Source of the DNA: Caryophanales bacterium
GTDB taxonomy: Bacteria; Bacillota_I; Bacilli_A; RF39; UBA660
Direction of reading: 5' to 3'
DNA length: 32,790 nucleotides
Assembly (NCBI GenBank): GCA_016290885.1
Contig: JAEEVN010000012.1
Location: 1-32,790, forward strand
Shown: positions 24,805 through 32,790 of the stretch, one piece after another
Position numbering within the stretch: the stretch's first letter is position 1
Layout of the letters: each line of letters opens with the position of its first letter
Notes under the pieces: model-generated
Database searches by the model: none
What the model saw: only the letters and a program-made list of their open reading frames with translations
Told to the model about the DNA's origin: nothing
Program-made: the position numbers and the translations under genes

Positions 24805-24818
24805 ATGAAGGAGGAAAA

Positions 24819-26237
24819 ATGAAAAAGATATTCAAAATGTTATTATGCTTAAGCATAATGCTAATATTTGGAATAAAAGGGGTAAAAGCAGATATTGGGG
24901 ATCATGTTACTTTAACAAAAAATGAATTAGATGGTGTATGGGCATATCACTATCTAAATGGAGATATGTGGATTTATATAAATCTACCACTTAGATATGC
25001 TAATGATAAATTAGTATATTGTATTGAACCAGATGTAAGAATTACTACAAGCGATTATATAATATATGATTTTAATAGATCTGGATATAGTGAAGAAGGT
25101 AAAAGAAAAATGGAATTAATATCATATTATGGATATAGATATGATAATCATAATGATCTTAAATATTATATTGCCACACAAGATTTAATATGGAGAATGT
25201 ATGCAGGAGCAGATATTCGTTGGACTAAAGGAGGAGAATATGGTGAAGAAATAGATATATCAAAAGAAAAGAATGAGATACTTGATTTAATAAGTAAACA
25301 TAATGTATTACCAAGTTTTAATGATTCTATAAACGAAATTAAAATTAATGAAACTAAAGAATTTATAGATACTAATGGAGTATTAAATAATTATGATTTA
25401 GAATATTCTGATAACTTAGAAATAACAAAAGAAGATAATAAATTAATTATTACTCCAAAAAAACAAGGAGAATATATAATTAATTTTATTCATAAAAAGA
25501 ATTATGAAAGTGAAACATTATTATATGATAACTTTAGTACATTGACTCAATCAGTTGCAGCATTTGGAGCACCTACATTAATTAATGGTAGTATGAAAAT
25601 AAATTCTAAAATAGATATAAATATTTATAAGAAAGATAAAGATACTAATGAATTAATATTAGATGAAGGTAATAAAGTAAAGATTAAGAATCTAGATACA
25701 GATACATATATAGGAGATATATATGAATTTGAAAATGGTAAATTAACCTTAACTCTAAAAGAAGGTAATTATAAAATAGAAGAAATATCTTCTAGTTATT
25801 CATATAGTATTAATGATGGGCTTAGTTTTTCTATATCAAAAGATGATATTACTAAGGATATAGATTTCTTTAATGAAAAAATTAAATGTGAAATAGTGGT
25901 ATTTAGTACATCAGGAGATATTAAGTTAGATAGTGATTTTGAAGTATATGACTTAAATGGCAATTTAGTATATAAAGGTAGAACTACTGATGGGGAAACT
26001 AAATTCTATTTAGAATATGGTAATTATATAGTTAAAGAAATTACAGTTCCAAATGGTTATATATTAAATGATAAAGAAATAAATTTAGAAGTAAATGATA
26101 TTACATGTGCATCTAGAGTAACATTTAATAATGATAAAGTAATAATGCCTATTACTTCTAAAGAATGTAATATATCTTATTTAATATTATTCTTTTTAAA
26201 TATAATTGGATATGTATTTACTAAAAAGATTAATTAA
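24819..26237 (+). CDS. Secreted thioester-domain (TQXA) surface protein with sorting signal
   Basis: Predicted adhesin-like cell-wall protein of 472 residues. A signal peptide ends at about VKA-D (residue 24). The thioester domain shows KLVYCIEP with Cys68 and ATQDLIW with Gln121; in this family Cys and Gln form an internal thioester that can react with host or matrix amines. Two prealbumin-like/SpaA-type modules follow, recognisable by GNYKIEEISSSYSY and GNYIVKEITVPNGYILNDKEI. The C-terminus is MPITS (443-447), a hydrophobic segment (about 452-468) and KKIN, the layout of a sortase signal with Ser replacing the usual Gly. AAGGAGGAAAA precedes the ATG. The 3' end overlaps the sortase gene by 26 bases. 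Surface anchoring and ligand binding are inferred. Confidence 0.88.
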   Translation: MKKIFKMLLCLSIMLIFGIKGVKADIGDHVTLTKNELDGVWAYHYLNGDMWIYINLPLRYANDKLVYCIEPDVRITTSDYIIYDFNRSGYSEEGKRKMELISYYGYRYDNHNDLKYYIATQDLIWRMYAGADIRWTKGGEYGEEIDISKEKNEILDLISKHNVLPSFNDSINEIKINETKEFIDTNGVLNNYDLEYSDNLEITKEDNKLIITPKKQGEYIINFIHKKNYESETLLYDNFSTLTQSVAAFGAPTLINGSMKINSKIDINIYKKDKDTNELILDEGNKVKIKNLDTDTYIGDIYEFENGKLTLTLKEGNYKIEEISSSYSYSINDGLSFSISKDDITKDIDFFNEKIKCEIVVFSTSGDIKLDSDFEVYDLNGNLVYKGRTTDGETKFYLEYGNYIVKEITVPNGYILNDKEINLEVNDITCASRVTFNNDKVIMPITSKECNISYLILFFLNIIGYVFTKKIN

Positions 26238-26703
26238 AATATTTATATTCTTTTCTTTATTTATATTTTTTATACCAGTTGCAAAGGAAATAAATATAAA
26301 AAAGAAAGTAGAAAAGGTTATAAAAGAAGATAATATTAATAATGAATATTTAGGGTATATTTATATTCCTAAATTTAATTATAAAAATTTAATTAAAGAA
26401 GGGACTGAAGCTTTAGATAATAATTTAATAGAACTTACAAATTTTTCTGATAAGATTGGATATAATAAAATAATACTTGCAGGACATAATAATAAATATG
26501 TTTTTAATAAGATATATAATTTAGATATAGAAGATCAAATTATTATTAGTGATTTTAATGTAGATTATAATTACAAAGTAAATGAAAGAAAAATAATTAA
26601 AGTTGATGATTTTTCTTTCTTTAATGAAGATGGATTATATCTAATTACTTGTACAAGTAATAATCAAGAAAGATTTGTAATAAAAGCAAAAAGAGAGTAT
26701 TAA
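26212..26703 (+). CDS. Sortase, small (class uncertain), paired with the thioester protein
   Basis: Transpeptidase that cleaves sorting signals and attaches proteins to the cell wall. The 163 residues start with a membrane anchor (about 8-23) followed by the sortase barrel. It has GYIYIPKFNYKN, LAGHNN with catalytic His92, YLITCTSN with Cys147 and QERFVIKAKR with Arg154, giving a complete His-Cys-Arg triad. The protein is short and lacks extra insertions, closest in style to class A/D enzymes. The ATG at 26212 lies inside the preceding gene without a clear Shine-Dalgarno sequence, so translation probably depends on coupling to the thioester protein. An in-frame TTG at 26206 is a less likely alternative. 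The overlap strongly suggests a dedicated enzyme-substrate pair. Confidence 0.88.
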   Translation: MYLLKRLIKIFIFFSLFIFFIPVAKEINIKKKVEKVIKEDNINNEYLGYIYIPKFNYKNLIKEGTEALDNNLIELTNFSDKIGYNKIILAGHNNKYVFNKIYNLDIEDQIIISDFNVDYNYKVNERKIIKVDDFSFFNEDGLYLITCTSNNQERFVIKAKREY

Positions 26704-26713
26704 CTCTCTTTTT
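26688..26713 (+). terminator. Terminator after the sortase gene
   Basis: An 11-bp stem (26688-26698 with 26703-26713, GAGAGT/ACTCTC core) with a 4-nt ATTA loop. The stop TAA lies in the loop and right arm. The right arm ends in five T. Confidence 0.75.
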
Positions 26714-26714
26714 A

Positions 26715-31472: not shown

Positions 31473-32790
31473 ATGAAAAAAATATTAAACAACAAAATAT
31501 CAAATTTAATAAAGGTGTTAGTAGCAGTATTAGCACTTTTTCTCTTTAATATAGATAAAGTAAAGGCAGATGTTTTGTATTCTAAGAACTATGGATATAC
31601 AGGTAATTATGAAACATTTACAGCACCTTATACTGGCGATTATAAGATTGAATTATGGGGAGCTGCTGGAAGTGACCGTGGAGGAAAAGGTGGAGCAGGA
31701 GCTTATACTTCTGGAATAATTAGATTAACAAAAGGTGAAACAATATACATTTATGTTGGAGGATATGAAACAACATTTAATGGTGGATATAAAAATGGAA
31801 TGGGTGGTAACGGCGGAACCGGTGGAGGAGCCACAGACGTTAGACTTGTTTCAGGAGCATGGAATAATACACAATCATTAGCATCACGTATTATGGTTGC
31901 TGCCGGTGGAGGAGGTTCTGGTTATGCCAGTGCTGGTGGAGCTGCCGGAGCATTGACAGGATTTACAGGTGCTAAATGGAGATATGACTGGTATGGTGGC
32001 GGTGCAACTCAAACATCAGGAGGATCTGGTGGAGCAGGAAGAGCAGGAAATGCTGGTCAATTCGGAATTGGTGGAAATCAATCTGGTGCAGCCTCAGGTG
32101 GAGGTGGCTACTACGGTGGTGGTGGAGGTCATGGACAAGTAAACTATGACCACGCATCAGGAGGTGGTGGATCATCATACATTTCGGGTTATAAAGGATG
32201 TGTTGCTATTAAAGCGGCTGATGATATAACACCTAAAGAAGGGTGTGCAAACGGAACAACAAATGTAGAATGTTCATATCACTATTCTGGCAAAAAATTT
32301 ACAAGTGCTGTAATGTATGCTGGTAATCAATCAATGCCAAATACTGCAGGTACAGGAACAATGACAGGTAATGGTGGAGCAGGTTATGCAAAAATATCAT
32401 TAAATTCAAGTAAAGACATGTTATCTGATATGTCAGTAAATAAAGGTTCATTAGTTGAAGATTTTTATCCTACTGAGACAGAATATACATGGATAATACC
32501 AAAAGGTGTAGATTTATTAACTGATGAGGATATCAATGCAACTGCATACTATAATACTTCTCAAGTTATAATTCCTGAAGAGATTCCTTTTGAACAAGAC
32601 GGAGATTCTTTTGATATTAAAGTAATTGGTGATGATGAAACAAGAAGAACTTATACAGTAACAATGCAAAGATATGTATCAAATGATGCAACTTTATCAA
32701 GTCTTGCTAGTGATCAAGGAATATTGACACCAGAATTCAATCCTAATACTACAACATATACTTTAGAATTTATGGATGATTTAGATAGTA
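31473..32790 (+). CDS. Secreted glycine-rich protein with cadherin-like beta-sandwich repeats, 3'-truncated
   Basis: The frame stays open to the end of the window, giving 439 residues so far. A signal peptide ends at about VKA-D (residue 32), like the thioester protein. Residues about 40-300 form a glycine-rich domain: YETFTAPYTGDYKIELWGAA, then many GG runs, GGNGGTGGGATDVR, VAAGGGGSGY and SGGGGSSYISG. This matches the bacterial Gly-rich family related in pattern to the glycine-rich region of ALK/LTK receptors. From about 314 come cadherin-like beta-sandwich repeats (LSDMSVNKGSLV ... RTYTVTMQR, then NDATLSSLASDQG ... FNPNTTTYTLEF). Codon choice differs from the neighbours, with more C-ending codons (GGC, GCC, GAC, TAC). 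Probably an exposed adhesin or matrix protein; the cell-wall anchor, if any, is beyond the window. Confidence 0.85.
   Translation, partial: MKKILNNKISNLIKVLVAVLALFLFNIDKVKADVLYSKNYGYTGNYETFTAPYTGDYKIELWGAAGSDRGGKGGAGAYTSGIIRLTKGETIYIYVGGYETTFNGGYKNGMGGNGGTGGGATDVRLVSGAWNNTQSLASRIMVAAGGGGSGYASAGGAAGALTGFTGAKWRYDWYGGGATQTSGGSGGAGRAGNAGQFGIGGNQSGAASGGGGYYGGGGGHGQVNYDHASGGGGSSYISGYKGCVAIKAADDITPKEGCANGTTNVECSYHYSGKKFTSAVMYAGNQSMPNTAGTGTMTGNGGAGYAKISLNSSKDMLSDMSVNKGSLVEDFYPTETEYTWIIPKGVDLLTDEDINATAYYNTSQVIIPEEIPFEQDGDSFDIKVIGDDETRRTYTVTMQRYVSNDATLSSLASDQGILTPEFNPNTTTYTLEFMDDLDS

Follow-up and report, generated by a model that had tools for sequence, protein, structure and literature searches.

A putative thioester adhesin and an overlapping sortase gene form a conserved pair in Bacilli of the UBA660 family

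Introduction

The stretch of DNA analysed in this work (hereafter the window; 32,790 nucleotides, contig C37 of a 1.11 Mb genome in 52 contigs) carries a gene for a putative thioester adhesin ending in the sorting motif MPITS, and the end of this gene is overlapped by a sortase gene. The locus raises the question whether the sortase serves the adjoining adhesin alone and whether, as proposed in an earlier note made from the sequence, it has become tuned to a Thr-Ser junction. The pair is a real and conserved adhesin-sortase unit. The claim of a rare unit tuned to Thr-Ser is too narrow and partly wrong.

Layout of the locus

Both open reading frames lie where they had been described. Their domains were recovered with Pfam models, namely TED (4e-7; 30.7 bits, cut-off 22) and SpaA (2e-15) in the adhesin and Sortase (PF04203; 6.5e-17; 61.9 bits, cut-off 26.6) in the second gene. 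The following features were assigned.

24808..24814, + strand: Shine-Dalgarno sequence AAGGAGG of the adhesin gene (from the sequence; duplex energy to the 16S tail -12.1 kcal/mol)
24819..26237, + strand: thioester adhesin gene, 472 aa, with signal peptide, Class II thioester domain (TED), two CnaB/SpaA domains (the second Cys-containing) and sorting signal
24819..24890, + strand: predicted signal peptide, residues 1-24 (hydrophobic N-terminus; [VA]KA or similar at its end in orthologues; putative cleavage site)
24894..25574, + strand: predicted Class II thioester domain, approximately residues 26-252 (Pfam TED; HMM alignment to SaTIE-TED 6fx6; fold match to BaTIE 6fwv)
25020..25022, + strand: Cys68, predicted thioester Cys (on SaTIE Cys296 in the alignment; invariant)
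25179..25181, + strand: Gln121, a conserved TQxxPhiW residue that is not the bond-forming Gln (PMC6194298; invariant)
25548..25550, + strand: Gln244, predicted thioester Gln (on SaTIE Gln467 in the alignment; invariant)
25587..25874, + strand: CnaB/SpaA domain 1, in which Lys, Glu and Asn are putative isopeptide residues (SpaA match 25614-25877; residues by inspection)
25875..26138, + strand: CnaB/SpaA domain 2, strand-A Lys missing (SpaA match 25932-26135)
25887-25889 and 26106-26108, + strand: Cys357 and Cys430 in CnaB/SpaA domain 2 (both invariant in the genus)
26145..26159, + strand: sorting motif MPITS, residues 443-447 (orthologue tails and tail profile)
26160..26234, + strand: spacer, hydrophobic helix and KK tail, which complete the sorting signal
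26212..26237, + strand: 26-base overlap from sortase start to adhesin stop
26212..26703, + strand: sortase gene, 163 aa, with N-terminal membrane anchor and His92, Cys147 and Arg154
26687..26714, no strand assigned: terminator-like palindrome of 12 pairs across the sortase stop (scored on the minus strand)

The adhesin tail runs in the order MPITS, KECNIS, hydrophobic stretch and KKIN, which bears out the MPITS-hydrophobic-KK signal of the earlier note. The same note had called the locus a fused module. The genes do overlap but are not fused, since the sortase ATG at 26212 lies inside the adhesin gene in a different frame. As had also been noticed, this start is without a clear ribosome-binding site: its duplex energy to the 16S tail is +1.7 kcal/mol, and that of the adhesin start is the -12.1 kcal/mol listed above. 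The sole membrane anchor of the sortase is a helix starting just after this Met, and any later start would lose it.

The adhesin head and stalk

A profile of 11 orthologues was aligned with the solved thioester domain of SaTIE (6fx6; 2e-17). In this HMM alignment Cys68 falls on residue 47 and Gln244 on residue 218 of the 6fx6 chain. If four vector residues are assumed to head the 253-residue construct (Gln254-Gly502 being 249 residues), one and the same offset converts both positions into the proven SaTIE pair, Cys296 and Gln467. Cys68, Gln121 and Gln244 are all invariant in the genus. The thioester context ascribed to Cys68 is thereby supported. Gln121, which had been taken for its partner, was ruled out: it sits in TQDLIW (residues 120-125), a TQxxPhiW motif in which the Gln is inessential for the thioester bond according to Miller et al. 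(PMC6194298), and the SaTIE alignment gives Gln244 instead. Because Cys68 and Gln244 align with the proven pair and are invariant, the adhesin head is classified as a Class II TED with a predicted Cys68-Gln244 thioester.

With respect to local motifs, Cys68 stands in YCIE and agrees with the [YFL]C motif. Gln244 is found in TQSVAAFG; here Thr precedes Gln, so that the PhiQ motif on the C-terminal hairpin is only loosely matched. For the beta-sandwich insert (slipknot) of about 75 residues expected ahead of this Gln, the length between Cys68 and Gln244 and the strands at 171-225 would fit, in a model that is weak in the head domain. The adhesin model as a whole is of middling quality (pLDDT 76; TED residues 70-84 below 50). 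The closest full-length structure is BaTIE (6fwv).

Stalk length differs by one CnaB domain among the species of the genus. In the last CnaB domain the strand-A Lys is missing, and two Cys residues (357 and 430) are invariant; these might form a disulfide replacing the isopeptide bond. A DsbA-like Thioredoxin_4 protein was not found in the genus.

Conservation of the pair in the genus

Sequence searches identified an orthologous sortase in all 12 genus genomes, each directly downstream of a TED/SpaA protein whose gene it overlaps by 17-35 bases. His92, Cys147 and Arg154, reported intact in the earlier note, proved invariant in the 11 aligned orthologues. The motifs were MPITS (six genomes), MPKTS (two), and MPITT, MPNTT, MPDTT and YPVTS (one each), all 12 conforming to [M/Y]PxT[S/T]: Pro and Thr are invariant, P4 is Met or Tyr, P1' is Ser or Thr, and the third position is I, V, K, D or N. 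A sorting signal defined more broadly, as xPxT plus a hydrophobic stretch and a basic tail, was likewise present in 12/12. The LPxTG models TIGR01167 and PF00746 gave no match to the window tail with its MPITS motif, and comparison of the C-termini of proteins adjoining the orthologous sortases revealed no canonical LPxTG neighbour in the genus.

A profile of the full-length tail, which finds tails of similar make-up and could let a second substrate with another hydrophobic stretch escape, gave exactly one full match per genome in 12/12 (1e-15 to 2e-21). The next matches, at 8e-4 and weaker, covered the hydrophobic part only. Given that all 12 genomes keep the pair, with one such tail each and a constant [M/Y]PxT[S/T], the sortase appears to be private to its adhesin; the one-substrate, one-sortase pair put forward earlier is thus well supported at the genus level by sequence comparison. 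By inspection, the unit in the window and in several relatives has a ligase-like (ligA-like) gene on one side and dus-like and lysS-like genes on the other, and the sharing of these housekeeping-like flanks suggests vertical inheritance.

It had further been supposed that the amount of sortase is tied to that of its substrate. The overlap of 17-35 bases and a Shine-Dalgarno sequence that is weak or absent in most genus genomes (fair in two members, -7 kcal/mol) lend indirect support to this supposition, in that sortase translation may be coupled to adhesin translation; in an AT-rich genome, a missing Shine-Dalgarno sequence by itself is no proof of coupling.

Proposed mechanism

We regard it as probable that the locus is a bicistronic unit for covalent adhesion, made up of a thioester adhesin and a translationally coupled private sortase that cuts MPIT|S. 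The adhesin would be exported via Sec and retained at the membrane by its C-terminal signal until the sortase acts. The sortase, made by coupled translation through the 26-base overlap, would cut after Thr446 (MPIT|S) and pass the adhesin to a cell-wall (peptidoglycan) precursor. It would read P4 Met, Pro and Thr, with Ser at P1' tolerated and not required; such cleavage between Thr and Ser would need no new chemistry, because LPATS is a known substrate of Streptococcus pyogenes SrtA. At the cell surface the CnaB domains would serve as a stiff stalk, and the Cys68-Gln244 thioester of the Class II TED at the tip would act as a "harpoon" that acylates an amine on the target. Thioester formation, cleavage site, exclusivity, coupling and target are the parts of this scheme that we infer.

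Sorting motifs and sortases across the family

The unit had been considered uncommon, which does not hold for the family. A TED protein above the family cut-off is encoded in 43 of 58 family genomes. The survey of 40 TED loci, together with those already collected, yielded 50 sortases that are each preceded by a gene for a surface protein; the sortase ATG overlaps this upstream gene in 43 of the 50 cases, and the upstream protein carries xPxT near its C-terminus in 48. Overlapping private pairs are therefore normal in the family, and Gly at P1' is rare. Among the 48 motifs P1' is S in 13, A in 7, Y in 6, G in 5, D, T, E and K in 3 each, L in 2, and Q, H and N in 1 each; outside the genus the fifth motif position is A, Y, G, D, E, K, L, Q, H, N or S.

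A quick tree of the 50 sortases, with many open forks, contains a split (SH-aLRT 98) between clade I (19 sortases including that of the window) and clade II (31 sortases). The P4 residue of the clade I motifs is M, Y or L; of the 29 clade II motifs, 28 have V or I there. Val at P4 requires 5 changes on the tree versus 16.3 after shuffling, and none of 300 shuffles was as low, also with the genus counted as one row. Ser/Thr at P1' requires 4 changes, but once the genus counts as a single row, a value as low was reached in 51 of 300 shuffles. Of the earlier claim that the sortase co-evolved to recognise MPxTS, the general idea of enzyme and substrate changing together thus finds support in these sequences at P4, but not at the Thr-Ser junction.

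These data bear on the explanation that the sortase is tuned to the Thr-Ser (MPxTS) junction with P1' Ser as its specificity determinant. Such tuning would agree with Ser or Thr at P1' in 12/12 genus genomes despite a variable third position, and with Ser in three of the seven other members of clade I. It is nevertheless unlikely given that P1' Ser/Thr is without phylogenetic signal once the genus is one row, that sister sortases in clade I adjoin tails with A, E or Y, and that several P1' residues are tolerated by known sortases.

Other surface proteins and sortases of the genome

The general wall sortase of the organism, standing beside one substrate by chance, is a further candidate role for the enzyme. 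Every genus genome encodes it, and in the window and several relatives it lies near the ligA-like, dus-like and lysS-like ORFs. Against this role, each genome holds only one tail of the MPITS type, and the other surface proteins of this genome bear the signals VPITD, [NS]IQTG[KQ] and NPKTG. Four further sortases are encoded in the genome, which could also act on the window adhesin, and two profile searches of this genome found no canonical LPxTG tail among the C-terminal matches. A general role is accordingly judged quite unlikely. Three matches were discarded as LPxTG substrates since they are internal to their ORFs: the one on C30, which was the only match above the cut-off besides the VPITD tails, and those at C4:1458 and C45:120827.

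Several other loci were recorded. Very large surface proteins of up to 4819 aa (L023:1305-14541 on C45, L025:347-3022 on C5 and L030:1962-16418 on C45; SpaA-matching in C45 and C5) have C-termini composed of [N/S]IQTG[K/Q], a hydrophobic stretch and a basic tail. Here [N/S]IQTG[K/Q] is a putative Pro-less sorting motif, and candidate sortases for these proteins are located on C45 and C14. A second sortase type (TLMTCESGGQSR) is encoded at L003:1492-2097 on C45 and in genus relatives (L049, L051-L054). It stands alone, with small lipoprotein-like and response-regulator-like genes adjoining in several genus genomes and no obvious substrate gene next to it. D-Ala-D-Ala ligase-like and MurF-like ORFs were assigned on C45 by inspection. 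At positions 31473-32789 of the window, a secreted protein truncated by the contig end contains a Gly-rich ALK/LTK-like domain (Pfam ALK_LTK_GRD, 1e-36) and is likely another surface protein.

Fold and class of the sortase

The enzyme has a sortase fold with His, the Cys of TLxTC, and Arg, and its fold matches were LmSrtA, CpSrtD and SrtC. The three catalytic residues are kept in 19/19 clade I sortases. No NCBIfam class model passed its cut-off (class D 45.9/165, class C 44.6/160, SrtD 43.2/140, class E 24.1/160), and the general NCBIfam sortase model scored 38.2 with a cut-off of 39.35. The near-equal scores of the class C and class D models would be compatible with a pilus-type polymerase that joins adhesins to each other or to a pilin and not to the wall, and a CnaB-rich adhesin accompanied by a private sortase is an arrangement typical of pilus loci (group A Streptococcus (GAS) Cpa, PMC7900414). 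We consider this very unlikely in view of the missing pilin gene next to the unit, the single substrate, and the short enzyme (163 aa) without C-terminal anchor. Finally, programmed frameshifting into an adhesin-sortase fusion protein, which the overlapping frames might suggest, was rejected: the frame relation varies in the family (overlap mod 3 is 2 in 36 cases and 1 in 7), no conserved slippery site was seen in the overlap sequences of the genus, and the sortase comes with a start and a membrane anchor of its own.

A sister clade with Gln at the catalytic Arg position

The Gln-for-Arg sister clade is more surprising than the unit in the window. In clade II, Gln occupies the column of the catalytic Arg in 28 of 31 sortases, and in 48 of 52 with the members added by a class-wide search, while His and Cys are kept in all. 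A new Lys is present in 51 of 52, in the stretch ahead of the catalytic strand, and the catalytic His lies in an HSG motif (Gly 52/52, Ser 50/52) versus HN in clade I. The neighbours of clade II sortases (about 50 family loci) carry [V/I]PxTx tails. Among 198 genomes across the class, clade II was found in this family only; the single match outside it (G059) was dismissed as an ordinary class C pair with its Arg one residue on.

Two clade II sortases are encoded in the genome that carries the window (L028:4029-4658 on C31 and L029:4199-4831 on C9), behind open frames of 913 and 928 aa with TED and SpaA domains and VPITD tails. The two units are near-identical copies and are probably located on plasmid-like elements, since ParB-like and DnaD-like genes adjoin. 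The clade II sortases may be active, as their neighbours are conserved and have intact xPxT tails. A literature search of incomplete coverage found nothing relevant on Gln-for-Arg sortases.

On the whole we lean slightly towards the view that surface display in the family consists of many private pairs without a P1' Gly rule, served by two kinds of sortase in which active site and P4 preference shifted together: His-Cys-Arg with Met, Tyr or Leu, and His-Cys-Gln plus an invariant Lys and HSG with Val or Ile. Activity of the Gln enzymes would mean that the catalytic Arg, which sortases are thought to share, is replaceable. A clade without this Arg would make the debated role of the residue directly testable in natural enzymes. 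The series of private pairs, with Pro and Thr fixed, P1' free and P4 tracking the sortase, forms a natural set for the study of sortase recognition. The LPxTG rule also under-detects wall proteins of uncultured Bacilli: as most sortase neighbours in the family are without Gly, motif-based surveys would overlook these neighbours, the window adhesin among them.

Comparison with known systems

The window adhesin resembles BaTIE and SaTIE (6fwv, 6fx6; PMC6194298) in its signal peptide, Class II TED Cys and Gln, CnaB stalk and C-terminal sorting signal, and most orthologues also share with BaTIE a TED plus three CnaB domains. BaTIE ends in LPATG, whereas the window adhesin ends in MPITS, is overlapped by a sortase gene and has one stalk domain fewer. 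A further difference from BaTIE and SaTIE is its last CnaB domain, where two invariant Cys residues are present and the strand-A Lys is missing.

Among solved sortases, SrtD of Clostridium perfringens (4d70; PMC4498605) is the best sequence match (1.3e-11), with the same Cys-to-Arg spacing of seven, and its gene likewise lies in an operon with a likely substrate. It differs in preferring LPQTGS and in sequence, the fold comparison giving about 23% identity, and no gene overlap is described in the parts of PMC4498605 consulted. The plasmid-like TED units on C31 and C9 may be compared with TIE of plasmid pLS20 (PMC8092201), a Class II TED adhesin that promotes conjugation; TIE differs in being without sorting signal and without sortase.

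The Cpa/SrtC pilus units of GAS (PMC7900414) likewise combine a thioester adhesin and a private sortase in one locus with a non-LPxTG motif (QVPTG, EVPTG, VPPTG or VVPTG). Cpa differs in that it has a Class I TED at the pilus tip, is joined to polymerised pilin and retains Gly at P1'. S. pyogenes SrtA is a class A housekeeping enzyme with the natural motif LPXTG, yet it processes LPATS and was crystallised with it (7s4o; PMC9520033), and thus accepts the Thr-Ser cleavage that is proposed for the window sortase.
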